In this document: positions 5,202 to 60,100 of the stretch, one piece after another
Layout: every line of letters starts with the position of its first letter
How positions within the stretch are numbered: position 1 is the stretch's first letter
Source of the DNA: Alphaproteobacteria bacterium
GTDB taxonomy: Bacteria; Pseudomonadota; Alphaproteobacteria; Micavibrionales; UBA2020
DNA length: 64,000 nt
Direction of reading: 5' to 3'
NCBI GenBank assembly: GCA_016794125.1
Contig: JAEUKT010000001.1
Location: forward strand, 248,001 to 312,000
The notes under the pieces: model-generated
What the model was told of the DNA's origin: nothing
The model's database searches: none
Seen by the model: the letters and a program-made list of their open reading frames with translations, nothing else
Made by a program: the position numbers and the translations under genes

Positions 5202-5299
5202 CGCATACTTCCTAAAAACAGTTCCTTAAATATCGAACGGAATTAGCGAACACGTGCGCGCGTTTGTACCGCGCATTGCTTTTCCTGTGGAGGAACATC

Positions 5300-5896
5300 A
5301 TGACAGATGCAGCACCGAATGCGCTGAACACCGCCTATATACAGCCGATCCCTATGATCCAGCAGGACGATCCCTACACGATCGGCACTTTTGCCAAGGG
5401 TTTATTCGCATTCGTGCTTGTCATGGCGGTTGCGGGCGAGCTTTCATATGATGGCGATCTTTCCGCAACACACCCAGGCCCACAGGCGGTCATGAAAAGC
5501 TGCGTCAGCGCATTCCGCGCCCATCCGCTGGCGATGTCGTTGGAAACCGATATTTCAAAATCGGCGATTCCGCTGGAGGGGCTAAGCGCTTCCGGCGTGG
5601 CCGCTATGCTTGAGAAAAACCACTTCCACATCGTGGACGACACCCGCCGTTATGCCGACAAGATGGTCTATAATGACCGCGTGCTGAAGGCCACGCGCAG
5701 CGCAAGCCGTTTCTGGCCCGAAATACTGCGCAAAGACAGCTGCGAAATCACGCTGTTCATGAAGGACGGCCATATCTCCGGCGCAGCCGCCGCTGCCATT
5801 CGCACACCCCATATCCCCATGCCTAAAATTAATTCGGGCGGCATTCCGGCCTTCGCGGGATTGAAAAACGCGGTTAGCGCAGCTGTCATCAAATGA
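5300..5896 (+). CDS. Hypothetical single-span membrane protein
   Basis: The ATG at 5300 was chosen because GGAGG lies 6 bases before it; an upstream in-frame start at 5264 lacks such a site. The 198-residue product has a short N-terminal segment, one membrane span (about residues 28-48, TIGTFAKGLFAFVLVMAVAG), and a soluble part of about 150 residues with no domain I recognise. It contains two widely spaced cysteines (KSCVSAF and KDSCEIT), which could pair if this part is periplasmic. It is followed by a good terminator at 5991-6024 and appears monocistronic. Confidence 0.7.
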   Translation: MTDAAPNALNTAYIQPIPMIQQDDPYTIGTFAKGLFAFVLVMAVAGELSYDGDLSATHPGPQAVMKSCVSAFRAHPLAMSLETDISKSAIPLEGLSASGVAAMLEKNHFHIVDDTRRYADKMVYNDRVLKATRSASRFWPEILRKDSCEITLFMKDGHISGAAAAAIRTPHIPMPKINSGGIPAFAGLKNAVSAAVIK

Positions 5897-6401: not shown

Positions 6402-7172
6402 TTATTCAGCGCCGCCGAATTTATGGCTGACGGTAAACACGGCGGTGGCGGCGCAGCCATCCGGGCATTGTGCTTTACTGAGGTTGCTATCGATATATTC
6501 CAGCTTGAAGTCAATGTCCTGCCACGCATAAGTCGCACCCAGCGACCAGTCGCTGTACGAGCCAACGCCATAACGCGCCTTGTCATCGACATATTGGTGA
6601 CCAAACGATCCCGTCACGCCAAACCCTGTTTCCTTGATCGGCGCATCGGCCTGGAATTTGCCGTACACGCCCGTGCCGCTGTCGCCCGAATTGTCGGGCG
6701 TGTAAATGACGGTTGCCTTGGTATTCACGATGTCAAAGCTGCGGCCGACGGCGGCGCTGAATTCGACAAGGTCGTAATCAAGCGCATCGGACGCGCCGGG
6801 ATAGAAAATCCCGTTTACCATGAAATCCCATTCAAAGCCCGCCCATTCCGTGGCGTAGCCCACATAGGTATCCAGTTCGTATGTCGCCTCATAGCTGTCG
6901 TTGAAATCGACATTCGATGCCCAGACACCGGCATAAATCCCGCTGTCATGTGTCCAGTCGATGCTGCCCTGTATAGCGGGCTTTTCATCGGTCTGCGACA
7001 TGCCGCGATCACGGTAATCGGTGGTGGCCGTCAGGGTAATGGAAAAATTGCCATAGGGACTGGCGGCGGCTTGCTCCGGCTTTGGCTCGCTGCCCGCAGT
7101 TTCTTCCGCAAAAGCGGCATTCGACATGAAGCACAACACCGCTGTAACGGCAACCAAACCCCTGAACGACAT
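6402..7172 (-). CDS. TorF-family putative outer-membrane porin (TIGR02001 type)
   Basis: The start MSFRGLV at 7172 was chosen because GGGGG precedes it and because it begins a clear signal peptide (cleavage after NAAFA, about residue 22). The mature part of about 234 residues shows alternating beta-strand pattern with the family's N-terminal SITLTATTDYRDRGMSQT motif and a C-terminal strand ending in the aromatic-rich TVSHKFGG. This is typical of the TorF/Gcw_chp outer-membrane proteins, whose substrate is generally unknown. It is the last gene of the aroK-aroB-corC-asnB-like run, 11 bases after the AsnB-like gene. Confidence 0.85.
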   Translation of the reverse strand: MSFRGLVAVTAVLCFMSNAAFAEETAGSEPKPEQAAASPYGNFSITLTATTDYRDRGMSQTDEKPAIQGSIDWTHDSGIYAGVWASNVDFNDSYEATYELDTYVGYATEWAGFEWDFMVNGIFYPGASDALDYDLVEFSAAVGRSFDIVNTKATVIYTPDNSGDSGTGVYGKFQADAPIKETGFGVTGSFGHQYVDDKARYGVGSYSDWSLGATYAWQDIDFKLEYIDSNLSKAQCPDGCAATAVFTVSHKFGGAE

Positions 7173-7183
7173 TCCAAGCCCCC

Positions 7184-9112
7184 TTATGATGAAATCCAGC
7201 CTTTTTCGTGATCGATGAATATCCTGAACCATAGTTCGGTCACGAGCAAGGCAAAAACCTGTTTCTGCGACATGCCGCCACCACCCTTCGCATTCGCAAC
7301 CATTTGCCGGATCGCCTGCGGTTCAAACAATCCGCGGCGGCGGATACTTTGTTCAGACAGGCACACTTCGACCATGTCGCGCAGCGGCCCGCGCGCTAGG
7401 CATTGATCCAGAATCCCCGTGCCCGGCTGCATGACCGGCACCTTCAGAGGCGCGCCCACAAAATTCGGCATCACGCGCGCAACATAGTTTCTCAAAAGCA
7501 CCTTGCGGCTGCTATCTGTACGGCGCAGGCGGTCCGGCACGCCCAGCATGAACGCGAATAGCTTGTGATCCATAAAAGGCAGGCGGACACCCAGCGAGTT
7601 GAACCCCGCAAGCTTGTCAACGACCGTCAGCGTACCATCTTGCAGTAAATGGTCGCCCTGCATGCCCATCAGCGCCGCAAGCGGCGTCGGCCACGACTGC
7701 TGCGGCCTTTCGCGGTCGGTGAACGCGCCAACGACCGGTGTCATCGCGCCGCCGTAAATTTCCTGCCGGTCGCGCGCGTTTATGAGCGATGCAACCCCCA
7801 TATATTGCTGCTGAAGTGTGCCGCTATGCATGGCCTCTGCAAAATCGGCGAGCCGCTGCTTGTTGCGAGGGCCGATTTTTCCGCTGAAATGCAGCTTGCG
7901 CGCGATCGTGGCAAGCGGCATGTAATCTTTCGTGTGCGTGAAAAGCTTCCAGAAAAATTTCGGCATGCCATAGGCGGCCAGCAGCGTATCGTGCTGCGGA
8001 TAGTTCATGAACAGGTTGTTTGCGCCGATACCCGACATCGCGACCTTGACCTTTGATGACGCAAGGCGCGCCATAAGGTGCATCGTCAAGATATTTGGAT
8101 CGGCAACTGGCTGGTCAAGCGCCCAGACAAGCTCGGGCAGCCTGTCCATGAATTCTGGTTCGAACTCGATGGCATGATGTACTGCACCGATACGCCCTGC
8201 AATTTCTGCAGGCCCCGGTACCCCGTCGATATCGCGCCCAAGCGACCCGGAAAAAACACTGATCGGCTTGCTGGTGTTTTTGGCCATCGCCCATAGCACG
8301 GCTGCGGATTCCAGACTGCCGGTCGCGAAGGCACCCAGCGACACATCGGGTATCTGGCGCAGCGCGACCGCTTCTTCGAACAGCGTCTCGAACTGCCTCT
8401 GGAAATCCTCGTCGGTTTTATGCGCCGGGTCGGGCTTAGCATTGCTATCCCATTGCCAGTACGGTTCGATCGCCACGTGCAGACCCGGATTCCAGATCAT
8501 GCGGTGGCCGGGCGGCAGCATATGGATCCCCTTGAACAGCCCCGCCTCTCCCGGCGTATATCCCAGCGTCAGGAACGCATCGACGCCCACCAGGTCGGGC
8601 GTCGCGCGGACGGACGGATGTTCCAGCAGCGACTTGATTTCGGAAGCAAAGACGAATGATCCGGATTGCGTAGTAGTGTAATAAAGCGGCTGAACGCCCA
8701 TCGGGTCGCGTGCCAGAAACACCAGACCCTTTTGCATGTCATGTACCGCAAAAGCAAAATGCCCGCGCATATGACTAACGCAGGTGAAACCATAGGTACG
8801 GTACAGGTTCAGCACGACTTCTGTATCGGTCTGTGTGCGAAAGGCGATACCCTTTTTAATCAGCTTCTCGCGTTCTTCCTTGTAGTTGTATAACTCCCCG
8901 GAAAAAGCGATGGCGAATTGCCGGTCTTCGGAATAAAGCGGCTGCCAGTTTTCGTCGGGGTCGATGGTGGCGAGGCGGCTCATGCCCATATACACAGGCG
9001 GCTCGATATGAAACCCTTCCCCATCCGGCCCGCGGTGTTTCAGTTTCCGCACCATAGACTGCAGCACGGCAAGTTCCTGCGGATGGCCCAGATATCCCGC
9101 GATCCCGCTCAT
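7184..9112 (-). CDS. Asparagine synthetase B-like protein with both active sites degenerate
   Basis: This 642-residue protein has the full class II amidotransferase plus ATP-dependent synthetase layout of AsnB. Residues 1-210 are the glutaminase-type domain (MSGIAGYLG, KHRGPDGEG, FSGELYNY) and residues 230-600 the synthetase domain. Known active members begin Met-Cys-Gly, the Cys being the nucleophile; here residue 2 is Ser (codon AGC). The ATP pyrophosphatase loop SGGxDS is TGSLES (264-269), and the later SGDGGDE motif is SGIGANN (360-366). I checked these codons directly. The frame is intact and composition normal, so it looks like a maintained pseudoenzyme rather than decay. Its start overlaps the stop of the CBS-protein gene by 4 bases (ATGA), implying translational coupling. 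An exotic amidotransferase activity cannot be excluded. Confidence 0.85.
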   Translation of the reverse strand: MSGIAGYLGHPQELAVLQSMVRKLKHRGPDGEGFHIEPPVYMGMSRLATIDPDENWQPLYSEDRQFAIAFSGELYNYKEEREKLIKKGIAFRTQTDTEVVLNLYRTYGFTCVSHMRGHFAFAVHDMQKGLVFLARDPMGVQPLYYTTTQSGSFVFASEIKSLLEHPSVRATPDLVGVDAFLTLGYTPGEAGLFKGIHMLPPGHRMIWNPGLHVAIEPYWQWDSNAKPDPAHKTDEDFQRQFETLFEEAVALRQIPDVSLGAFATGSLESAAVLWAMAKNTSKPISVFSGSLGRDIDGVPGPAEIAGRIGAVHHAIEFEPEFMDRLPELVWALDQPVADPNILTMHLMARLASSKVKVAMSGIGANNLFMNYPQHDTLLAAYGMPKFFWKLFTHTKDYMPLATIARKLHFSGKIGPRNKQRLADFAEAMHSGTLQQQYMGVASLINARDRQEIYGGAMTPVVGAFTDRERPQQSWPTPLAALMGMQGDHLLQDGTLTVVDKLAGFNSLGVRLPFMDHKLFAFMLGVPDRLRRTDSSRKVLLRNYVARVMPNFVGAPLKVPVMQPGTGILDQCLARGPLRDMVEVCLSEQSIRRRGLFEPQAIRQMVANAKGGGGMSQKQVFALLVTELWFRIFIDHEKGWISS

Positions 9113-10425
9113 GCGTAACCTTCCTTATGCTGCGTCAGGCCAGGGGCAGTCGTCGTCAGCGGCGTAACCTTGACAAGCATTACCTGGTTGCGCTGCTTCT
9201 TTACAATTTCAAAGCGGCATTCAAAGAAATGAAATACCTGACCAACAGCCGGAATACGCTGCGATTCAAAAAGCACAAGACCAGCAACGGTCGAATAATC
9301 GTCATCCGGCAGCGACCAGCCAAGGTCGCGGTTCAGGTCGCGTATCGTGACCTTGCCGTCGATAATATAACCGCCGTCCGGCTGCGCGCGCACCCCCGAC
9401 ACGGCAACATCGTGTTCATCGTCGATCTGGCCGACGATTTCTTCCAAAATATCTTCCATCGTGATCATGCCGGTGACGACGCCATACTCATCGACCATTA
9501 TTGCAAAATGTTCGCGGCGGCGGCGGAATGCCTGCAGCTGATCAAATACCGTCGTGGATTCCGGGATAAACCACGGCTCCATCATTGCTGCCTGCATGTT
9601 GATTTTCGATACATCTCCGTTGCAATGGCGCAGTTCCTGCAGCAGCAGTTTCGTATGCACGACACCCACGATATTATCGGGGCTGTCGCGCCATGCCGGG
9701 ATGCGGGTATAAGCGCTGTGCAGCACTTCATCGACGATCTGCGCGACCGGCAGGTCGAGGTTGATCATGTTGACGGAGCGGCGGTGGATCATGATTTTCT
9801 CCACCTTCACATCGGCGAGATCCATGATGGAGCGCATCATCGCGCCTTTGCCCTGATCGGACGGCACTTCTTCCTCGGACTCCTTGAACAGCTCGATTGC
9901 GCCGCGCAGTTCTTCTTCGTGGGCCGTCTCCGAATGGCCGTGGGTATCGACACCGAATGCCTTGAACATTGTACCGACAACCTTGCCAACGGTGATGGTA
10001 ACCGGCGAGAACAGGGCGATCACAATGCGCACCGGAACGGCCAGCGCCAGAGCCATGCGGTCGGCATGCATCAGCGCATAGGTTTTCGGCACGACTTCGG
10101 CGAAAATAAACACGATCACGGTCACGCCCATGGTGGCGACTACGACGCCGGTATTGTCGCCCAGCACCTGCACCAGCACGGATGTTGCAAGAGCGGAGGC
10201 AAAGATGTTCATGAAACTGTTGCCGAGCAGCAGCGCGCTGATCAGCTGTTCTTTCTTCTCCCGCAGATGCAGCACAAGGCTCGCCATTTTATTGCCGTCG
10301 GCTTCCAGCGCCACCATGCGCGCACGGGATGCGCCCGTCAGCGCCGTTTCCGCGCCCGCGAAAAAACCTGATGCCAGCAGCATGCAGACAAAACCGACAA
10401 GTTCAAACCAATGGTTGGTATCCAT
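9109..10425 (-). CDS. CorC/HlyC-type membrane protein with CNNM and CBS domains
   Basis: This 438-residue protein has the order of the UPF0053 family. An N-terminal DUF21/CNNM membrane domain with about four spans (residues 1-185) includes GAETALTGASRARM and FAEVVPKTYA. A CBS pair follows (about 210-330), with the MIHRRSVNMINLD and ARIPAW-like RIPAWRDSP segments. A C-terminal CorC_HlyC domain (about 345-430) contains GGYIIDGKVTIRDLN. Relatives are linked to magnesium/cobalt export or resistance. It follows aroB by 14 bases and overlaps the AsnB-like gene. The aroK-aroB-CBS order is common in alphaproteobacteria. Confidence 0.92.
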   Translation of the reverse strand: MDTNHWFELVGFVCMLLASGFFAGAETALTGASRARMVALEADGNKMASLVLHLREKKEQLISALLLGNSFMNIFASALATSVLVQVLGDNTGVVVATMGVTVIVFIFAEVVPKTYALMHADRMALALAVPVRIVIALFSPVTITVGKVVGTMFKAFGVDTHGHSETAHEEELRGAIELFKESEEEVPSDQGKGAMMRSIMDLADVKVEKIMIHRRSVNMINLDLPVAQIVDEVLHSAYTRIPAWRDSPDNIVGVVHTKLLLQELRHCNGDVSKINMQAAMMEPWFIPESTTVFDQLQAFRRRREHFAIMVDEYGVVTGMITMEDILEEIVGQIDDEHDVAVSGVRAQPDGGYIIDGKVTIRDLNRDLGWSLPDDDYSTVAGLVLFESQRIPAVGQVFHFFECRFEIVKKQRNQVMLVKVTPLTTTAPGLTQHKEGYA

Positions 10426-10439
10426 GTTCTTTCCGTCCC

Positions 10440-11552
10440 TTATCCGCCGAAACGGCTGCGTAAAAATTCCGTGACCTTGGCTTCATCGACATCATTCGCC
10501 ACGAACGACTTGCCGATACCGCGGGCGAGGATGAAGGTCATCTTGCCATCCTTTGCCTTCTTGTCGCCCTTCATGCGCGCCAGCACATCTGCTGCCGTTA
10601 CCTTGAACGGCGGCGATTGCAGCAGGCCGGTTTTGTCGAGGTGCTTGCCGAGCGCGTCGCAATCGGCGGCTGGGCACAATCCGGCATCGCGCGAAAAATC
10701 GAAAGCAAGTTTCAGCCCGATACCGACCGCTTCGCCATGCAGCAGCCTGCCGTCATACCCTCCGATTGCCTCGAAGGCATGTCCGAAGGTGTGGCCAAGA
10801 TTGAGCAGCGCGCGGATGTCTTTTTGTTCTTTCTCGTCCGCCTTGACGATAGCGACCTTGGCCTTGCAGCTGTATTCGATGGCATAGGTCAGCGCGGCAG
10901 GATCTCCCGCGAGCAATTTCTGGCCGTTTTGTTCCAGCCATTGAAAAAATTCAGGGCTGTCGATCAGCGCGTATTTCAGAATTTCGGCATAGCCCGATTT
11001 CAATTCTCTCTCTGGCAACGTGCGCAGCGTGCCTGTATCGATCAGTACCGTTTTCGGCTGATAGAATGTACCGACAAGGTTTTTGCCCTGCGGCGAATTG
11101 ATCGCGGTCTTGCCGCCGACGGAGCTATCAACCTGCGCCAATAATGTCGTCGGCACCTGCACGAAATGAATGCCACGCAGGATGATGGAAGCCGCAAAGC
11201 CCGTGATGTCGCCGATCACACCGCCGCCCAGCGCCACCAGCGCCGATTTGCGGTCGAGTTTATAGCCGAGCGACTTTTCAATGATATGCTGCAGCTGCTG
11301 GAAATTTTTCGTTTCTTCGCCCGCCGGCAAAATCACGGGCGGATAAGGCGTAAAGCCCGCGGATTCCAAAGCCTGCATGAAATCTAAGAGGTAAGGTTTC
11401 GCGACATTTTCGTCCGTTACGACGCAGATTTTTTTTGAGGGTAATACGTTTTTCAGCATATCGCCCGCACGCGACAACAGCCCTTCCCCGATATGGATAT
11501 CGTAGGAAGCAGAGGAAACCGCGACATTTACAATGTTATGCGCCACGGTCAC
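10440..11552 (-). CDS. aroB: 3-dehydroquinate synthase
   Basis: This 370-residue enzyme converts DAHP to 3-dehydroquinate, the second step of the shikimate pathway, using NAD and a divalent metal. The NAD-binding GGGVIGDITGFAASI, the QVPTTLLAQVDSSVGGKTAIN segment in two parts, and the metal-binding NLGHTFGHAFE are all present. Its start lies inside the end of aroK (17-base overlap), so translation is probably coupled. Length and motifs are typical, and nothing is missing. Confidence 0.97.
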   Translation of the reverse strand: MTVAHNIVNVAVSSASYDIHIGEGLLSRAGDMLKNVLPSKKICVVTDENVAKPYLLDFMQALESAGFTPYPPVILPAGEETKNFQQLQHIIEKSLGYKLDRKSALVALGGGVIGDITGFAASIILRGIHFVQVPTTLLAQVDSSVGGKTAINSPQGKNLVGTFYQPKTVLIDTGTLRTLPERELKSGYAEILKYALIDSPEFFQWLEQNGQKLLAGDPAALTYAIEYSCKAKVAIVKADEKEQKDIRALLNLGHTFGHAFEAIGGYDGRLLHGEAVGIGLKLAFDFSRDAGLCPAADCDALGKHLDKTGLLQSPPFKVTAADVLARMKGDKKAKDGKMTFILARGIGKSFVANDVDEAKVTEFLRSRFGG

Positions 11553-12072
11553 GTTTCCATTTTTCCAGTTGCTCGATGATGATACGCGCCATGTGTCGGG
11601 GCGACTGGTCGTCCGTCACCACGGTGATATCCGCTTCAGCGTAAACCGGATAACGCACATCTATCAACTGCGAGAGCTTTGCAGCGCGATCAACGCCGCG
11701 CAGCAGCGGACGGTTATCCGTGCGCGATGTGCGCTCCACCAATGTCTCGAGGCTGGCCTTCAACCAGACAGAGACAGCCCTCGCCTTCACGGCGCTGCGG
11801 ATATCGGGCTGGATGAAGGCGCCGCCACCGGAGGCGAGGACTTTGGGGCCGCTTTCCAGCAGGCGCAACATCACCTTTTTTTCACCGATACGGAATTCCG
11901 GCTCGCCCAGCCGTTCGAAGATTTCGGGAATCGACATGCCGGCGGCTTTTTCAATTTCCTTGTCTGCGTCAATAAAAGGCATTTTCAGGATGCGCGAAAG
12001 CTCGATCCCCACGCGGCTCTTACCCGACCCCATCAGGCCAATCAGCACAATGATTTCGTGTGAAAATTCCAT
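11536..12072 (-). CDS. aroK: Shikimate kinase
   Basis: This 178-residue P-loop kinase phosphorylates shikimate with ATP. The Walker A motif is GLMGSGKS (residues 12-19). Shikimate-binding residues lie in FIDADKEIE and the GGGAF loop, and the lid region contains RTDNRPLL. It is the first gene of the minus-strand run aroK-aroB-corC-like-asnB-like-torF-like. The region upstream (12073-12171) is AT-rich and should hold its promoter, but I do not see a clear match. Confidence 0.96.
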   Translation of the reverse strand: MEFSHEIIVLIGLMGSGKSRVGIELSRILKMPFIDADKEIEKAAGMSIPEIFERLGEPEFRIGEKKVMLRLLESGPKVLASGGGAFIQPDIRSAVKARAVSVWLKASLETLVERTSRTDNRPLLRGVDRAAKLSQLIDVRYPVYAEADITVVTDDQSPRHMARIIIEQLEKWKRDRGA

Positions 12073-14427: not shown

Positions 14428-15375
14428 ATGTACCATCTCGAATTCGAAAAACCTGTCGTCGAACTGGAAGCCAAAATTCTGGAACTCCAGAACATGGACA
14501 AGGCAGGCGGCGTGAACCTGACGGATGAAATCACCCGCATCCAGGAAAAGGCCGAACGCATTCTGGTGCAGACCTATTCCAAGCTGACCGCAGACCAAAA
14601 GGTGCAGGTTGCGCGCCACCCGAACCGCCCCCATTTCGTCGATTACACCCGCCGCCTGATTCAGGATTTCACGCCGCTCGCCGGCGACCGCCTGTTCGGC
14701 GAAGACAACGCGCTGATGGGGGGCCTCGGCCGTTTCCGCGGCCAGTCCTGCGTCGTGATCGGTCAGGAAAAAGGGGCGGACACCACGACCCGCGTGAAGC
14801 ACAATTTCGGGATGTCGCGCCCCGAAGGTTACCGCAAGGCGCAGCGCCTGATGGAACTGGCGACGCAATTCAGTCTGCCCATCGTCACGCTGGTCGATAC
14901 CGCCGGCGCATTTCCGGGCATCGAGGCGGAAGAACGCGGCCAGTCCGAAGCCATCGCGAAATCGATTGAATCCTGCCTGCGCGCGACCGTTCCCATCGTC
15001 TCCGTCATCATCGGCGAAGGCGGATCGGGCGGCGCAATCGCCATCGCCACCGCCGACCGCGTGATGATGCTGGAACATTCCATCTATTCCGTCATTTCAC
15101 CCGAAGGCTGCGCCTCGATCCTCTGGCGCTCCGCCGAATTCGCCAAGGACGCCGCCCGCGCGCTCAAACTGACCGCGCAGGACCTGAAGCAGCTGGGCAT
15201 CATCGACACCATCATCGAAGAACCCATGGGCGGCGCGCACCGCGATGCCGACCGCACGATGGATGTGGTGGGCGATTACATCGAAAACGCGCTGGGCGAG
15301 CTGTCGAAAATGGACGGGGCCACCCTCAAAATCCGCCGCCGCCAGAAATATCTGGAGATGGGGCATACCCTCTAA
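14428..15375 (+). CDS. accA: Acetyl-CoA carboxylase carboxyltransferase subunit alpha
   Basis: With AccD, this subunit transfers the carboxyl group from biotin to acetyl-CoA, the first committed step of fatty acid synthesis. I chose the start MYHLEFEKPV at 14428, which has GGAAGG just before it and matches the family N-terminus; an upstream ATG at 14404 would add eight atypical residues. The 315-residue length is typical. Motifs include RPHFVDYTRRL, LGRFRGQSCVVIGQEKG, TLVDTAGAFPG and IGEGGSGGAIAI. It converges on the next gene with a 4-base overlap of the two 3' ends. Confidence 0.96.
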   Translation: MYHLEFEKPVVELEAKILELQNMDKAGGVNLTDEITRIQEKAERILVQTYSKLTADQKVQVARHPNRPHFVDYTRRLIQDFTPLAGDRLFGEDNALMGGLGRFRGQSCVVIGQEKGADTTTRVKHNFGMSRPEGYRKAQRLMELATQFSLPIVTLVDTAGAFPGIEAEERGQSEAIAKSIESCLRATVPIVSVIIGEGGSGGAIAIATADRVMMLEHSIYSVISPEGCASILWRSAEFAKDAARALKLTAQDLKQLGIIDTIIEEPMGGAHRDADRTMDVVGDYIENALGELSKMDGATLKIRRRQKYLEMGHTL

Positions 15376-17429
15376 TTCTGGATGGTGGTTCCCGTCTTCT
15401 GCGCTGTTTTCTTCGTGCTTAAATCACGAATGGCATTCCCCGCCCTGTAAATCACCGGCTGCACATGCACCGCCCAGTTCATGACACCGGCGATCAGGGA
15501 ATGTTCGCCAGCGGCGGCGGCATAATAGCGTTTATAGGTTGCGCCGCTGGCATAGGGGTTCGGCACGGCCTTGGGCAGCCAGAACAGGAAACCGATAAAC
15601 AAGCCCCCCGCCGCCATACGCAGAATCGTCGGCGAGACGCTGTATTTCATGAGCTTCACGCGCCCCAGCGCCGCCGGTAGCAAAATCACGCCGCGCATAA
15701 TCGTCATCATCACGACGCTCAGCGACACGACCAGAGAAATTGTCGGGATATAGAGCGCCTTCACGTAGTCTTTGCCCGTTTCCATCTCGATCTCGTCATC
15801 GGGATGCAGTTTGCGGTCTTTGCGCAAATCATCCAGCATCGCGGTCACAAGACGCTGGTTCCCGGGCAGCACGTATTTCTTGAAAAACATTTCCTCGGTC
15901 ATCAACATCTGTTCAACGGGCGGCAGCGTAGTATCAACGCCCAGCGTCTTCATGAATTCTTCTTCGCTGAGACCCGGCGGCAGTTTCTTGCCGAATTTGG
16001 CGTTCCATTTCTTTTCCGCCTGCTCCTTGATCAACGCGCTCATCTTGCGTTCGAAATCAGCCGGTTCGTATTCCCATGTCTCGGGCAGCGTGAAATCGGG
16101 CATATCAAATCGCGTACGCACCGCCGCCTGCACCTTTTCGTTCACCAGCTTTTTGGTTTTCGGGTGCTTCAGGAAGTCTTCTTTTTTGTCGATGCTGGGC
16201 GGGTAACCGGCGGCCAGCGTGAAATCGCGGATGGCCTTTTTCTGCGCGGCGCGGATCTGCGGCGTGGCATCGATATCGGGGCAGTCCTGTTCGCGCGCGG
16301 CGCAGATGGCGTTCACCGTGCTGCCGACGGATAAAGCCTCGCGCATCGCCTGCTTGGCGACCACGGATATCGTTTGCTCGAAATCATAGACCGCGCCGCG
16401 GTATTTCTTCCACCCCGCCTCCAGCTCGGCATCGATTTCGGCGCTCGCCTGCTTGGCTTGCTGGTCCAGGGCGGCCGGATCGACCGCGTTCCGGTACATT
16501 TCCGACGCTTTTTTATAGGGGTTGTAATATTTGGCATAGAACTGGTTGCTGATATCTTTTTCGTATTTGTCGCGGGTTTTTTCGACCTTCTTCACATAGC
16601 TTTTGTACTGGTCCTGCGGCGAAAACCACACGCCCCGGATGGCGGCGGATTCAACGATTGAATCGCGGTTCAGTTCAAGGTCGCGCAGGATCGCTTCGGG
16701 CTTCATCATCCAAAGCGCGCTGACGATAATCCGCGTCGCCTTCAGATCGGGCGCGCCCTGGTCGTCCTTGCACAGTTGCAGGTCGCCCAGCGTCAGCACA
16801 CAATCCTCCAGCCCCGCGCGCAGCATCAGCATATACCGCGCATTCTGTCGTTCTTCCCAGTCGGTTGCATCGACAACATAGCTTTCGATCAGCAGTTTTT
16901 GCCCAAGGAACATCGCCGGCCATGCCAGCAGGATCAGGCAGATAATAATCTGCGGCCGCCAGCGCCCCGCGCTTGCCAGCACCATGAACAGGCCCAGCAG
17001 CGGCAGCACGCTGATCATCGTTTCGATGGGTTCCAGCCCCAGCGGCGCGGTATAACCGCTGGGCATCAATTCCGGCACGCTGTGGCGGAACACCATGATG
17101 AAGGGGATGAGGCAGACGGTGGCAACGCCAAAGAACAACCCCCAATCCTTGCGGCGTTTCAGGCGGAAACCGGATGACTGGAACAGGCCCAGCACCAGCA
17201 GCGTGAAGCCATAGGCCGATACCGTGCGCCCGAAATATTGCAGCTTGTCGAGCGCGTCGGGATCGGATTTAACGCTGCCCGCCACCTCCAGCAGCTGCAT
17301 GTTGAACACAGCCTCCGCCACAATATAGACTATGCTGAGGACAAAGAAAAACAGGCCCAGCGGCGTGAAAAACGCGCGGCGTGGCGCGGCGGTTTTCATT
17401 GCTGGCGAGGTTTTCTTTTTGGTCTTCAT
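15372..17429 (-). CDS. Large multi-pass membrane protein of unknown function, 685 residues
   Basis: A Lys-rich N-terminus is followed by about five membrane spans (residues 23-180). A long charged soluble part (about 190-575) comes next, rich in Lys, Glu and Asp with helical stretches such as VKKVEKTRDKYEKDI and a few cysteines (DCVLTLGDLQLC, CAAREQDC). Two or three C-terminal spans follow (about 580-660). I recognise no family or catalytic motif. The soluble part lies between membrane blocks and could be cytoplasmic or periplasmic. It is monocistronic by position, with the RHH_4 gene 33 bases upstream on the same strand. Confidence 0.75.
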   Translation of the reverse strand: MKTKKKTSPAMKTAAPRRAFFTPLGLFFFVLSIVYIVAEAVFNMQLLEVAGSVKSDPDALDKLQYFGRTVSAYGFTLLVLGLFQSSGFRLKRRKDWGLFFGVATVCLIPFIMVFRHSVPELMPSGYTAPLGLEPIETMISVLPLLGLFMVLASAGRWRPQIIICLILLAWPAMFLGQKLLIESYVVDATDWEERQNARYMLMLRAGLEDCVLTLGDLQLCKDDQGAPDLKATRIIVSALWMMKPEAILRDLELNRDSIVESAAIRGVWFSPQDQYKSYVKKVEKTRDKYEKDISNQFYAKYYNPYKKASEMYRNAVDPAALDQQAKQASAEIDAELEAGWKKYRGAVYDFEQTISVVAKQAMREALSVGSTVNAICAAREQDCPDIDATPQIRAAQKKAIRDFTLAAGYPPSIDKKEDFLKHPKTKKLVNEKVQAAVRTRFDMPDFTLPETWEYEPADFERKMSALIKEQAEKKWNAKFGKKLPPGLSEEEFMKTLGVDTTLPPVEQMLMTEEMFFKKYVLPGNQRLVTAMLDDLRKDRKLHPDDEIEMETGKDYVKALYIPTISLVVSLSVVMMTIMRGVILLPAALGRVKLMKYSVSPTILRMAAGGLFIGFLFWLPKAVPNPYASGATYKRYYAAAAGEHSLIAGVMNWAVHVQPVIYRAGNAIRDLSTKKTAQKTGTTIQN

Positions 17430-17984: not shown

Positions 17985-18070
17985 TAGATAATCGAGCAAT
18001 ATCAAAGGGAAACACTTAACCGCTTTTCCCGCTACTTGTTTTAGGGGCGGTGGATCGCCATAATTTCACC

Positions 18071-18703
18071 ATGTGGGATTTCAAGATAAAGCCTTTCGTT
18101 CGCGGTCGCGACAAACTGACCGACAACATCCCCGCCATCCGCAAGAATTGCGAGATCGGCGGCTGCGAAAATCTGGGCGAGTTCCGCGCGCCGAAATCCC
18201 GCTATGACCTGCGCGATTATTACTGGTTCTGCCTTGACCATGTGCGCGAATACAACGCGAACTGGGATTTCTTCAAGGGCATGGGCCGCGCGGAAATCGA
18301 ACATCATATGCAAAAGACAAGCGTCTGGGACCGCCCCACCTGGCGCATGACGCAGGCCGGCTTCAACGAAGAAAAAGCCCGCCAGAAAATCTACGAGGCC
18401 TTCACCAATGGCGAAAGCGTGTTCGGCGATTTCAACGCGCGCGGCGAGAATGACGAACAGCAGGAAGCGCATATCGATATCGCCTCCATCCCCCACCCAA
18501 CCGTGGAGGCGCTGGCCGTCATGGGCCTTGCCCCGCCCGTCGGCTGGGAAGAGGTCAAGACGCGTTATAAAACCCTTGCCAAAAAATACCATCCGGATAC
18601 CAATAAGGATGATGCCAAGGCCGAGGAACAGCTCAAGAAAATCAACCTCGCCTATTCGATTTTGAAGATTTCCTACCAACACTACATGAAACTGGACGAA
18701 TAG
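18071..18703 (+). CDS. J-domain (DnaJ-like) protein next to cobS-cobT
   Basis: This 210-residue protein has an N-terminal region with paired cysteines and histidine (KNCEIGGCENLGE, WFCLDHVREYN) that may bind metal. A J-domain occupies the last 65 residues, with the essential HPD at residues 174-176 (YHPDTN). Proteins of this design recur beside cobS in alphaproteobacteria. J-domains stimulate DnaK ATPase, so this one may deliver a specific client. The start is uncertain: ATG at 18071 is used here, and an in-frame GTG at 18050 is possible; neither has a good ribosome site. It ends 3 bases before cobS. Confidence 0.88.
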   Translation: MWDFKIKPFVRGRDKLTDNIPAIRKNCEIGGCENLGEFRAPKSRYDLRDYYWFCLDHVREYNANWDFFKGMGRAEIEHHMQKTSVWDRPTWRMTQAGFNEEKARQKIYEAFTNGESVFGDFNARGENDEQQEAHIDIASIPHPTVEALAVMGLAPPVGWEEVKTRYKTLAKKYHPDTNKDDAKAEEQLKKINLAYSILKISYQHYMKLDE

Positions 18704-18706
18704 ATC

Positions 18707-19684
18707 ATGACTGCCGCCTCCTCTGCCGCCAAGCGCGTTCCCGACATCCAGGTCTCCGTCAAGCAGCTGTTCGGCATCGATGTCGACGACATGCAGGTGC
18801 CCGCGTTTTCGCAAAAGCAGGACAACGTGCCAGATGTGGACGAGGCGTACCGGTTCGATAAAAACACCACGCTCGCTATCCTCGCCGGTTTCGCGCACAA
18901 CAAGCGTGTGATGGTGCAGGGCTATCATGGCACCGGGAAATCGACGCATATCGAACAGGTGGCCGCGCGCCTCAACTGGCCATGCATCCGCATCAACCTC
19001 GACAGCCATGTCAGCCGCATCGACCTGATCGGCAAGGATGCGATCACCCTGCGCGAAGGCAAGCAGGTCACGGAATTCAAGGAAGGTATTCTGCCCTGGG
19101 CGCTGAAAAACCCGGTCGCAATCGTGTTCGACGAATACGACGCAGGCCGCCCCGATGTGATGTTCGTCATCCAGCGCGTGCTGGAGGCGGAGGGCAAGCT
19201 GACTCTGCTCGACCAGAACGAAGTCATCCGCCCGCATTCGGCGTTCCGCATTTTCGCGACCACCAACACCGTCGGCCTTGGCGACACGACCGGCCTCTAT
19301 CACGGCACGCAACAGATCAACCAGGGCCAGATGGACCGCTGGAACATCGTGGCGACGCTGAATTATTTGTCGGCGGAAGCGGAGGTCGAAATTATCCTCG
19401 CCCGTGCGCCCGCCTATAAAACCGACGACGGCCGCAAAAAAGTGGCTGCGATGGTGCGCATGGCGAACCTGACGCGCAAGGGATTCATCGCGGGCGACCT
19501 CTCGACCGTCATGTCGCCCCGTACCGTTATCCATTGGGCGGAAAACGCGCAGATCCTCGGCGACCTCGATTTCGCCTTTACCCTCACCTTCCTCAACAAA
19601 TGCGACGAGCTGGAAAAGACCATCGTGTCCGAATATTACCAGCGCTGCTTTGACCGCGCATTGGTGAAGGTGCGCGAGGACTGA
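18707..19684 (+). CDS. cobS: Cobaltochelatase-type AAA+ ATPase subunit CobS
   Basis: This 325-residue AAA+ protein has Walker [10 protein letters not shown], Walker [11 protein letters not shown], and the sensor segment [22 protein letters not shown] that is characteristic of CobS. In aerobic cobalamin synthesis CobS and CobT form the chaperone-like ring that works with CobN to insert cobalt. CobN and other cob genes are not in this window, so the metal-insertion role is known for the family but not shown here. Its stop overlaps the cobT start by one base (TGATG). Confidence 0.93.
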
Positions 19685-21531
19685 TGTCCGACACCAACGA
19701 TCCCGTTGAAAATTTCAAGCACGCCACGCAATCGACCGCGCGGGCGCTGTCGGGGCGCGAGGATCTGGAGGTGTCGTTCGGCGGGCATCTGGCGGAAATT
19801 TCCGGCCATTCGATACGCCTGCCTTCCCTGCCGAAAATGATCGAGGATGGCGAAGCGGCATTGGTGCGCGGCATGGCCGATACCTTTGCGCTGAAACTGA
19901 ATTACCACGATGCTGCAGTCCACCAGAAGCTTGCCCCCGCCGACCCGCGCGCGCGCCTTGCCTATCAGGCACTGGAAGACGCGCGGATCGAGGCGGTCGG
20001 CACCGAAATTTATCCCGGCGTATCGTCGAATATCGAGGCAGCGCTGCGCCATGAAGCGCGCCGGCAAAAACTGGAATATGTCAGCAACATGGATGATGCG
20101 CCGCTGGCGGAAGCGCTGCGGTATATGGCGCGGGAATCCTTCACCGGCCGCAAGCCGCCCAAGGAAGCGTCGAAAGTCATCAAGGTCTGGCAGAACTGGA
20201 TCACGAAACATCTGGGCGATGACGGGCTGGAAGGCCTGAAAAAATCGCTGCACAGCCAGGAAGACTTCGCCAAGCTGGTGCATCACCTGATCGATAAAAT
20301 GGAGATGCCGTCCACCCCTGCCGAGCAGCCGCCGTCGCCGCAGGAAGACGAAAGTCAGGAAGAAAAGAAAAGCGAAGGCGCGGAAAAAGCGGCGGAGCAG
20401 GACAGCGCGTCCAAATCCACCCCACCGTCCGAAGTCACCGAAGACGCCGACAGCGGCGAGCAGGCCGAAGCCGATGCTGAAAGCATGGCCGGCGAGGAAA
20501 TGGACAGCGAGGATTTCGACGACGGCGACAACGAGGAAGCGCGCAAAAACACCCCGCGCGACGGCAAAAACGCATTGTACGGCGAATACAAAGTCTTCAC
20601 CGCCCAGTTCGACGAAATCGTCGATGCCCGCGACCTGTGCGAGCCGGAGGAGCTGCAGAAACTCCGCAAGATGCTCGACAAGCAAATGACGCATTTGCAG
20701 GGCGTGATTACGCGCCTTGCGAACAAGCTTCAGCGTAAATTATTGGCGCAGCAGACGCGGTCGTGGCAATTCGACCTTGAAGAAGGCATCCTCGACAGCG
20801 CGCGCCTGTCACGCGCCATTGCCAACCCCTATTGGCCGGTCAGTTACAAGCAGGAAAGCGAAACCGATTTCCGCGACACCGTTGTGTCGCTGCTGATCGA
20901 CAATTCCGGCTCCATGCGCGGCCGCCCCATCACGATTGCGGCGATGAGCACCGACATTCTGGCGCGCACGCTGGAGCGTTGCGGGGTGAAGGTTGAAATT
21001 CTCGGCTTCACGACGCGGGCATGGAAAGGCGGCCTCTCCCGCGAACGCTGGCTGTCGGAAGGCAAGCCGCATTCCCCCGGCCGGTTGAACGACCTGCGTC
21101 ATATTGTCTACAAACCCGCCGACAGCCCGTGGCGGCATGTGCGCGCGAATCTGGGCCTGATGCTGCGCGAAGGCTTGCTGAAGGAAAACATAGACGGCGA
21201 GGCATTGCTCTGGGCTTACCAGCGCCTGATGCATCGCCCCGAACAGCGCAAGATTTTGATGGTCATTTCCGACGGCGCGCCGGTGGATGATTCCACCCTT
21301 TCCGCCAATCAGGGCAATTACCTCGAAGAACACCTGCGCCGCGTGATCCATTTCATCGAGGACAAGACGCAGATCCAGCTGCTGGCGATCGGCATCGGGC
21401 ATGATGTCACCCGCTATTACAAACGCGCCGTGACGTTGGTCGATGCCGAAGAACTGGGCGGCGCGATCACCGAAAAACTGGCCGAACTGTTCGAAGAAAC
21501 ACCCGCCAAGGGCAAGAAACGGGCGCATTAA
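19684..21531 (+). CDS. cobT: Cobaltochelatase-type VWA-domain subunit CobT
   Basis: This 615-residue protein has the CobT N-terminal domain ([16 protein letters not shown]), a long acidic linker rich in Glu, Asp and Ser (about residues 205-300), and a C-terminal von Willebrand A domain with the MIDAS motif DNSGSMRG. It partners with CobS, and translation is coupled through the one-base overlap. The three-gene unit J-domain-cobS-cobT suggests a chaperone-assisted complex. It is followed by hisS after about 70 bases. Confidence 0.93.
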
Positions 21532-55996: not shown

Positions 55997-56187
55997 AGCA
56001 GTGATATATTCCATTTTCGTTTCTTATACAAGATTTTAAGCCTCTTTGCTCACCTAAAACCTTGAAAATAATCCCATTTAACTGCACATAACGCCGGAAG
56101 CAATATTGCATTTCTCTCGATTAAGAGCATATAATCTCCGCAGATTCTTACATATAAAAAGAAACGACCGAATGCGAAGGAACACCT

Positions 56188-57171
56188 ATGTCCAATAAAG
56201 TAATCACTTTTCTGGTGGTGCTGTTTGCCGTTACGGGCCTCATCATCTACGTTGCGAAAACGACATCAGTTGTAAAAACCGACGCCCCGCAGGCGCAAGA
56301 AGCGGCTGTCACCCCCGCACCCGCCAGCGACAAACCCGCAGAAACGCCCGCCGCAAGTGCGGAACCGGCAAAGACCGAAACCGCCAAAACCGAAGAAACC
56401 GAACACAGCGCCGACAACGTCCTGACCGACGACGCCCCGCTGTCGGGCGACCATGAAGCGGTCGAAGCGGCAAAGGCCGAAGATACGGCGGAGAAAAAAG
56501 CTCCCGCATCCCTCACCCCTGAGTCCTTCCCCGCCCTGCCCGCCACCCCCGCGACAGGCGGCAGCACCGTGACCGGTTCGGAAGGCGGCAGCAGCCTGCT
56601 CGCCCCGTCCGCCGCGATGGACATTGATATGGATAACGCCCTCGCCGAACGCTCGCTGGGCGATGTCGATGCACCCGTAACCGTCATTGAATATGCGTCG
56701 ATGACCTGCCCCCATTGCGCGCGTTTCCACAACGATATCCTGCCCGTGGTCAAGCAGCGCCTGATCGACACCGGCAAACTGCGCCTGATCTTCCGCGACT
56801 ACCCGCTCGACACCCATGCGCTGAAGGCGGCGATGATGGCGCGCTGCACCGACCGTTCGCGCTATTTCCAGCTGGTGGAGGTGATCTTCAAGCAGCAAAG
56901 CAACTGGATCAAGGGAACCGACCCGCTGGTCGGCCTGAAACAGCTGGGCGCGCTGGCCGGCATGGAACCCGCCTTTATCGACACTTGCGTTGCCAACCCG
57001 CAGCTGCAGCAGTTCCTGCTGTCCGGCATGCAGGAAGGCCAGCAGAAATACAAGATCAAGGCGACCCCGACTTTCGTCTTCAATAACGGCGCCGAACAGA
57101 TGGAAGGCGACAAAAACCCCGAGGATTTCGATGCGATCGTCGAAAAACTCCTCAAAAAGAAGGGTAACTAA
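56188..57171 (+). CDS. DsbA-like thioredoxin-fold protein with long Ala/Glu-rich linker
   Basis: GAAGGAAC precedes the ATG. The 327-residue protein has an N-terminal membrane anchor (residues 4-24, ITFLVVLFAVTGLIIYV). About 125 residues of Ala-, Glu-, Pro- and Thr-rich linker follow, then a DsbA/thioredoxin_4 domain with active-site CPHC (C174-C177) in SMTCPHCARFHND and cis-Pro in IKATPTFVFNNG. It probably oxidises or handles disulfides in the periplasm. It lies 5 bases before smc, an arrangement common in alphaproteobacteria. Confidence 0.9.
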   Translation: MSNKVITFLVVLFAVTGLIIYVAKTTSVVKTDAPQAQEAAVTPAPASDKPAETPAASAEPAKTETAKTEETEHSADNVLTDDAPLSGDHEAVEAAKAEDTAEKKAPASLTPESFPALPATPATGGSTVTGSEGGSSLLAPSAAMDIDMDNALAERSLGDVDAPVTVIEYASMTCPHCARFHNDILPVVKQRLIDTGKLRLIFRDYPLDTHALKAAMMARCTDRSRYFQLVEVIFKQQSNWIKGTDPLVGLKQLGALAGMEPAFIDTCVANPQLQQFLLSGMQEGQQKYKIKATPTFVFNNGAEQMEGDKNPEDFDAIVEKLLKKKGN

Positions 57172-57176
57172 TCCAG

Positions 57177-60100
57177 ATGGTACAGTTCAAGAAACTCCGC
57201 CTCACCGGCTTTAAATCCTTCGTCGAAACGACCGAATTCGATATCGGCGCAGGCCTGACCGGCATCGTCGGCCCCAACGGCTGCGGCAAGTCGAACATCA
57301 TGGAAGCGCTCCGCTGGGCGATGGGCGAAAACTCGCCCAAACGCATGCGCTCCACCGGCATGGAAGATGTCATCTTCAACGGCACCGAAGGCCGCCCGCC
57401 CCGCAACACAGCGGAAGTGACCCTGTACCTCGACAACCGCGACCGCACCGCGCCCGCGGAAATCAACGACAGCGACGAACTCGAAGTCTCGCGCAAGATC
57501 GAGCGCGATGTGGGTTCCACCTACAAGGTCAACGGCAAGGTCGTGCGCATGCGCGACGTGCAGCTGCTGTTCGCCGACAGCTCCATCGGTTCGCACTCCC
57601 CCGCGCTGGTGTCGCAGGGCCGCGTCGCCGACATGATCAACGCGAAACCCACCCAGCGCCGCATGGTGCTGGAGGAAGCCGCCGGCATTTCCGGGCTGCA
57701 CGCCCGCCGCCACGAAGCGGAACTGAAACTGAAGGCCGCCGAAACCAACCTGCTCCGCGTCGAAGACGTGCTGGGCGCGATGAACGTGCAGCTGGAAGGC
57801 CTGAAGAAACAGGCGCGCCAGGCGTCGCGTTACCGCAACCTGTCCGGACACATCCAGCAGGCCGAAGGCTCGCTGCTGTTCCTGAAATTTAACGAAAGCC
57901 AGACCGCCGTGACGGCCGCGCTGGCCGCGTTCGAGGAAGCGGAAAACCAGGTGCGCGACCGCATGCTGGTCGTGACCGAACTGACCACGAAACAGACCGA
58001 AGCCGCCGCATCCCTGCCGCAACTGCGCCAGAGCGAAGCGGAAGCCGCAGCCGCGCTGCAACGCCTGAAACTCGCTTATGGCGGGCTGGAAAGCGAAGAA
58101 CGCCAGGTGCAGGAAGAACGCACGAAATCGGAAAGCCTGATCGCGCAGTTCAGCGCCGATGTCGCGCATGAAAACCTGCAAAGCGCCGAAGCGACCGAAA
58201 CCGTCGCACGCCTGACCGAAGAAAACGCGAAACTGGAATCCGAAGCGGAAAACCAGTCCGGCCGCGAAGAAACCGCGCGCATCGCGAAGGAAGAAGCGCA
58301 AGCCACGGTCGAAAAGATCGAAAACGAACTGACCGTCCTGACCGAAGAAGTCGCATCGCAAGATGCACAACGTCATTCTGTCGAACGCCAGATCAACGAT
58401 CTGGAACGCCGCCTGACGCAGCTGCAACAGCGCAAAGAGCAGCTGGAAAAGATGCATAACGACCTGATCGCCGCGACCCCTGCGCGCGCCGAAATGGACG
58501 ATATCCAGCTGCAGATCATCACGGCGGAGCAGACCTATGCTTCCGCGACCACCGCGCTCGATACCGCTGAATCCGAACGCGCCGCAGCCGATGCGCGCGC
58601 ACAGGAAACCAACGAAGCCCTGCAAACCGTGCAGCGCCTGTTCTCCCAACTGACGGCGGAGGCCGAAGCCCTGCGCCGCATCCTGCGCAACCAGCAGGAA
58701 GGCTTCCAGCCGGTCATCGACCTGCTGAATGTCGATGCGGGTCTGGAGAAAGCGCTTGCCGTTGCGCTGGGCGACGACCTGCAGGCAGCGCTTGACGGCG
58801 ACGCGCCCATCTTCTGGCGCGAACTGCCCGAATACGCGACCGTTCCCGCACTGCCCGGCACAGCAAAACCGCTGACGCAATATGTGCGCGGCCCGCATGC
58901 GCTGTCGCGCATCCTGTCGCAGATCGGCATCGTCGATACCGCCGAAGAAGCAGAAGGCCTGATGGCCGACCTGCAACCCGGCCAATGCCTTGTCACGCTC
59001 GACGGCGGTGCATGGCGCTGGGACGGCCTGACCGTTTCGGCCGATGCCGAAAACGCGGCCGCTATCCGCCTTGAACAGAAAAACCGCCTTGCCGACCTCG
59101 ATGCGCAAATCCTGACCGTGCAGGTGCAGGTCGATGACGCGCGCGCCGCAGCCGATGCCGCGAAACAGGCACGCCATGCGGCCGCCGATGCCGTTGGTGC
59201 CGCCCGCCAGCATTCGCGCCAGTCGGAAGAACAGCTGAACGGCCTGCGTCGCCGCCACTCTGTGCTGACCAACCAGCTGTCCGAAGTGACGGCGAAACTG
59301 GCCGGCCTTGCAAGCTCCATCGAAAACGCCGCGCAGGAAATCGACGTTGTTTCCACGCAAGCGACGGAAGCACGCGAAGCCCACGCCGCCCTGCCCGACA
59401 CGGCAGAGGCACGCGAACGCGTCGCGTCGCTGAAAGTGACGCTGGGTGAGAACCGCCAGATGCTCGCCGACAGCCAGGCCGCGCATTCGGAAATCCGCCG
59501 CGAAGGTGAAAACCGCAGCCGCCGCATTTCCCAAATTGCGAACGACATCACCAGCTGGAACGGCCGCATCGAACGCGTCGCCCTTCGCCTGCTGGAGCTG
59601 GAAGACCGCATCGCGCAGGCGCAGGAAGTGCTCGACCGCCTGGCCGAACGCCCCGCGCAGATCGAAGCGGAAAAACAGAGCCTGATGTCGCATATCGCTG
59701 AAGCCGAAGCGAAGCGTCAGGAAGCGGCAGACATCCTGATTTCGTCGGAAACCAACGCCAACGACCTCTCCCGCGAACTCCGCGCGGTTGAATCGGCGCT
59801 GTCAGACGCGAAGGAAGCCCGCGCGATGGCGCAGGCGAGCGTCAACACCACCCAGCACACCGCGACCGGCATCGAAGCGACCATCTTCGAAAAATTCAAC
59901 TGCACGCCGGAAGAACTGGTTGCCAAGCTGGAACTCGTCGTCGCCGATCTCGGCGAAATCGGCAGCTGGCAAGGCAAGCTGGAACGCCTGTTGCGCGAAC
60001 GCGACAACATGGGCCCCGTCAACCTGCGCGCCGAAGTGGAATCGCAGGAAATTTCCGACAAGATGGGCGGCATGTCGGCAGAGCGCGACGACCTTGTCGC

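Follow-up and report, generated by a model that had tools for sequence, protein, structure and literature searches.

A probable AsnB-fold pseudoenzyme lineage encoded beside aroK-aroB and a CNNM-family gene in one alphaproteobacterial family

AsnB-type amidotransferases join a class II glutaminase domain and an Asn_synthase domain in one chain, and are further characterized by an N-terminal cysteine, an oxyanion and substrate network, a pyrophosphate loop of consensus SGGxDS and an SGxGxD[ED] loop. In human ASNS, the network that contacts glutamine and serves the oxyanion consists of Arg-48, Asn-74, Gly-75, Glu-76 and Asp-96 (PMC6748925). Solved relatives sharing the AsnB fold include a beta-lactam synthetase (1jgt) and a carbapenam synthetase (1q15). 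These two enzymes have also dispensed with the glutaminase cysteine, but they keep ATP-dependent adenylation (1mb9 was solved with ATP). To our knowledge, no AsnB-fold pseudoenzyme lacking both sites has been described, and a full-text literature search returned no paper joining AsnB and pseudoenzyme, nor anything else of relevance. Pseudoenzymes as such are already known, while an AsnB-fold branch with both active sites lost is, as far as the literature was searched, undescribed. The gene described here has the two-domain architecture in one chain (Pfam, NCBIfam and the match to 1ct9), and lacks the N-terminal cysteine, an intact oxyanion and substrate network, SGGxDS and SGxGxD[ED].

Gene setting and loss of catalytic motifs

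The window, that is, the whole stretch of 64,000 nucleotides analysed, comes from an alphaproteobacterium of the order Micavibrionales. Its first-pass annotation had described an AsnB-like frame of 642 residues, free of frameshifts, with Ser2, TGSLES at 264-269 and SGIGANN at 360-366 in place of catalytic motifs; the window's reading frame and translation bear this out in every particular and place the gene, for which no strand had been given, on the minus strand. The two-domain composition that had been claimed is retained as well (Pfam GATase_7, E 6e-40; Asn_synthase, E 1e-48). The features of the locus are as follows.

7184..9112, minus strand: AsnB-like pseudoenzyme, 642 aa (Ser2, TGSLES 264-269, SGIGANN 360-366)
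9107..9109, minus strand: codon 2, AGC (Ser), replacing the catalytic Cys; orthologues all Ser or Ala
8306..8323, minus strand: degenerate pyrophosphate loop TGSLES (canonical SGGxDS), residues 264-269, placed by codon arithmetic
8015..8035, minus strand: degenerate SGxGxDE loop SGIGANN, residues 360-366, placed by codon arithmetic
8456..8494, minus strand: clade-specific conserved linker motif, residues 207-219, WNPGLHVAIEPYW in the window and WNPGLHVMIEPYW in most members, placed by codon arithmetic
9109..10425, minus strand: CNNM/CorC-HlyC family putative Mg2+ transporter, its stop overlapping the pseudoenzyme start (ATGA)
10440..11552, minus strand: aroB, 3-dehydroquinate synthase
11536..12072, minus strand: aroK, shikimate kinase
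6402..7232, minus strand: TorF-family putative porin, a downstream neighbour only in G000, G002 and G004

The proposed coupling to a CorC-like gene takes the form of a four-base overlap with the upstream CNNM/CorC-like gene, which is itself preceded by aroB and aroK, the setting originally assigned. An outer-membrane protein had been placed downstream; a TorF-type putative porin does stand there in the window, but it is a neighbour in only the three genomes listed. Among carriers, the order is xerD (divergent) followed by aroK-aroB-CNNM-pseudoAsnB, with contig breaks as the sole exceptions (aroK hidden in G014, the pseudoenzyme gene split in G002); the first-pass suggestion to ask whether the gene stays beside aroB and corC is answered by its following aroB-CNNM in all nine carrier genomes. 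The convergent coaBC gene lies downstream in most carriers. The ATGA overlap is found in six of the nine genomes, a gap of 62-63 bases separating the two genes in the three genomes of genus g3. Since the overlap forces codon 2 to start with A, it bars cysteine (TGC, TGT); this constraint fits the AGC codon of the window and fails to account for the alanine of the g3 genomes, in which the genes do not overlap.

Several other features of the window were recorded. A 210-aa frame between coaBC and the TorF-like porin (5264-5896, plus strand) has no Pfam or NCBIfam match. A 685-aa probable membrane protein without a Pfam match (15372-17429, minus strand) is conserved at 36-47% identity in several family genomes, where its gene neighbours accA. 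At 18050-21531 (plus strand), a DnaJ-domain protein gene adjoins CobS-like and CobT-like (cobaltochelatase) genes; at least two relatives also have the DnaJ gene next to the CobS-like one. Positions 56001-60000 have a GC content of 0.614 and an AT skew of 0.255, versus 0.55-0.58 and at most 0.16 elsewhere.

Both chemistries of the parent enzyme appear to have been abandoned by the whole group. Cys2, the oxyanion Asn and SGGxDS are missing in eight of eight full-length clade members, and two fragments from a ninth genome are likewise without catalytic motifs, whereas Cys2 and SGGxDS are kept in all active relatives compared (35/35); the loss is therefore not a chance pattern. The glutaminase oxyanion Asn (Asn-74 of human ASNS) is Ser71 in the window, a loss that the first-pass annotation had not listed, and Ser or Ala across the clade. 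Every member has lost both the second Gly and the Asp of the pyrophosphate loop, with Glu (Glu268) always in place of the Asp. The loop otherwise reads TGSLES, GADLES, RSSLEA, SGDIES, TGDVES, SGVVEE or SGAAEE, a variety between members as expected if catalysis has been released. No clade member retains the whole SGxGxDE motif, while Asp333 is kept in the clade. Judged by these replacements, neither canonical reaction is expected, that is, neither glutamine hydrolysis (Cys, oxyanion Asn) nor ATP-dependent adenylation (SGGxD). The two-domain fold is nevertheless predicted to be intact, since an AlphaFold model built with a deep alignment (pLDDT 89.4, pTM 0.91) matches solved AsnB-type structures over both domains, although having a fold in common is no proof of function. 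The eight pseudoenzyme rows alone gave a pLDDT of 50.6, and the addition of 33 active relatives raised it to 89.4.

Distribution, origin and selection

Orthologues occur in eight further genomes of the family, spread over three genera, at 40-95% identity. Close orthologues with intact Cys2 and SGGxDS had been named as the sign of a decaying copy; none is intact, whether at 93-95%, 60%, 48%, 46%, 45% or 42% identity or among the two at 40-41%. When 142 genomes of the order were searched with a clade model, scores above 1000 bits were confined to members of this family, the ninth genome appearing as a pair of fragments at about 520 bits; below these came enzymes with intact motifs, at about 500 bits in three genomes. 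Across 385 genomes sampled from the class, no further pseudoenzyme was found, only active enzymes below 320 bits, and a scan of contigs returned only two fragments of one MAG that were already among the whole-genome matches. Seven genomes of genus g2, in the same family, retain aroB-CNNM without the pseudoenzyme gene. In a tree of neighbouring housekeeping proteins, a single branch separates carriers from non-carriers, a pattern that, the tree being unrooted, fits one gain and one loss in g2 equally.

In a maximum-likelihood tree, the pseudoenzymes form one clade (support 100/100) nested inside active AsnB-type amidotransferases. Their sister branch (100/98) comprises intact enzymes of three genomes from another family of the same order, the genes of which adjoin UDP-GlcNAc 2-epimerase, glycosyltransferase, methyltransferase, capsule-synthesis and AlgX-like genes. 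Because these intact sisters sit in surface-polysaccharide clusters, an amidotransferase of surface-polysaccharide synthesis is the probable ancestor.

The gene is under strong purifying selection. The two gene parts that can be compared between the window and G002 give dN/dS values of 0.049 and 0.060, next to 0.023 for CNNM and 0.055 for aroB, and between G014 and G015 the value for the gene is 0.026. At larger distances, the pseudoenzyme changes at roughly double the rate of CNNM and in most pairs outpaces aroB, which implies that much of the synthetase domain is loosely constrained; few positions are invariant in the clade between residues 241 and 510. In the clade, conservation has shifted to residues 145-240, a region of hypervariable sequence in active enzymes. 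Residues 181-240 contain 23 clade-invariant positions, as against 3 at 80% conservation or more in the active enzymes. The linker motif running from W207 to W219 spans the region between the two domains, and H124, E164, D178, K194, H197, H212 and E216 have become invariant in the clade. Taken together, the lost catalytic residues and the newly conserved positions point to an altered function rather than relaxation alone.

The first-pass reading of a maintained pseudoenzyme is thereby strengthened, in that orthologues share the losses and dN/dS between close pairs stays within 0.026-0.060. Motif loss affects a whole group nested inside active enzymes, and the group is under purifying selection. 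It is therefore likely that these proteins constitute a single-origin, maintained pseudoenzyme family, derived from an AsnB-type enzyme, with a binding or regulatory role.

Candidate roles of the pseudoenzyme

The fold would have been retained as a binding protein, with an interface that includes the conserved linker, and the partner could, at less than even odds, be the co-translated CNNM, regulated from the cytosol by the pseudoenzyme. In animals, enzyme-derived PRLs and ARL15 bind CNNM CBS-pair domains, and the affinity of ARL15 for GTP is lower by orders of magnitude than that of typical GTPases (PMC10348743). With this regulation of animal CNNMs and the gene order as its grounds, the foremost candidate partner is the coupled homologue of CNNM Mg2+ transporters. 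That the pseudoenzyme is a dedicated cytosolic CNNM Mg2+ regulator, a bacterial parallel to PRL and ARL15, is put forward as a tentative proposal, with prospects well short of even; both animal proteins are cytosolic CNNM binders of enzymatic descent, but their folds are unrelated to AsnB and binding of CNNM by the pseudoenzyme is conjecture by analogy. CNNM does not need the pseudoenzyme, since the seven g2 genomes keep aroB-CNNM without it, and the adjacency may reflect operon capture alone. Fixed differences between carriers and non-carriers number about eight at internal positions of CNNM, some of them within or beside the CBS pair, versus about none at those of aroB; they prove no co-evolution, because carriers and non-carriers are two clades. 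None of the PADLOC defence models matched.

A different binding role, unlikely but the most plausible of the other readings, is that of a residual ligand sensor, one that would have kept its binding of glutamine, an acidic sugar or an amino acid but no longer turn it over, and that would act on a partner not linked to CNNM. The window protein and that of G004 keep R46, G72, E73 and D96, equivalents of glutamine contacts in human ASNS (PMC6748925), and the intact sisters lie in surface-polysaccharide clusters. R46 and D96 are gone in most other members, however, and the oxyanion Asn in all, so that glutamine sensing cannot be the function of the whole clade.

Surviving active-site residues (Asp333; R46 and D96 in the window lineage) leave room for a changed activity, in which a different reaction, independent of an Ntn cysteine or pyrophosphate loop, would be catalyzed either by the remodelled synthetase pocket or by a site newly formed in the linker. 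The constancy of Glu268, the retention of Asp333 and the newly invariant residues listed above would fit such neo-catalysis, for which AMPylation by the pseudoenzyme SelO offers a precedent (PMC10211241). The rest of the synthetase loops and SGxGxDE vary freely, in contrast to a conserved catalytic pocket, and the stretch from 241 to 510 has few invariants, making this a rather improbable account.

In a prozyme-like role, the protein would pair with and activate a competent AsnB paralogue. A PF00733 search of the host genome (3.16 Mb, 99.95% complete) yielded no second AsnB, and no AsnRS scored above the curated cut-off there; one further PF00733 match was rejected as an AsnB, its sequence looking MnmA-like. 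AsnA was found in none of the 17 family genomes searched, and GatB is present in 16 of them, the host included. In the transamidation pathway, asparagine is made on tRNA. Given GatB and the lack of another AsnB, AsnA or AsnRS, the host probably makes its asparagine in this way, and asparagine synthesis would then not need the pseudoenzyme. Intact AsnB-type paralogues do occur elsewhere in the genomes of G001, G003, G015, G016 and G017, and activation of an enzyme by its dead paralogue is known (PMC5201418). A prozyme is contradicted in the host, whose nearly complete genome holds no other AsnB to be regulated, and a search of G004 likewise found only the pseudoenzyme match, which leaves this role very improbable. 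As a separate observation, the intact paralogues (G003, G017 and others; loci L012-L020) read VYYGEGLAINGH where others show a DEPFAD-type motif, and form a long branch of their own.

Least of all can the gene be a former asparagine synthetase decaying towards loss, which the missing catalytic residues and the g2 genomes of the same family without the gene might suggest, but which is refuted by dN/dS values of 0.03-0.06 between close pairs, the absence of stops in nine genomes, conserved synteny and losses shared across the clade.

Significance and comparison with known AsnB-fold enzymes

A maintained pseudoenzyme family of this kind would be a clear-cut natural example of a two-site amidotransferase lineage that lost both chemistries, was long kept and has active sisters for comparison. 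Should binding to CNNM prove true, it would allow the regulation of such transporters to be studied in bacteria. The protein scores 337 bits against the NCBI equivalog TIGR01536 (asparagine synthase; cut-off 267), so that automatic annotation would name it an active asparagine synthase; correcting this matters because the host would otherwise be credited with an asparagine synthetase that is apparently absent.

The closest active relatives, at 34% identity, are the XrtA/PEP-CTERM amidotransferases (TIGR03108) and the AsnB-like enzymes of polysaccharide clusters (G122-G124), with which the C-terminal residues Q618, F620, E626, R630, D634 and W639 are shared. With 330 bits against a curated cut-off of 816.9, the pseudoenzyme is not a member of TIGR03108. 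Enzymes of the G122-G124 type have intact motifs and lie beside UDP-GlcNAc 2-epimerase, glycosyltransferase and AlgX-like genes, whereas the pseudoenzyme lies beside aroK-aroB-CNNM. The best match among solved structures is the TsnB9 hydroxyamidotransferase (7ylz; Z 37.5, 545 residues aligned, 26% identity), which keeps MCG and a recognisable SGGLDS loop, neither of which the pseudoenzyme has. Escherichia coli AsnB (AS-B, 1ct9; VIA Z 33.5) and human ASNS (6gq3; VIA Z 31.1) are matched over the full length of both domains. In contrast to these enzymes, the pseudoenzyme lacks Cys-1, the oxyanion Asn, the SGGxDS pyrophosphate loop and an intact SGxGxDE, and asparagine synthesis is not expected of it. 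It likewise departs from the beta-lactam and carbapenam synthetases in that its pyrophosphate loop is gone too.
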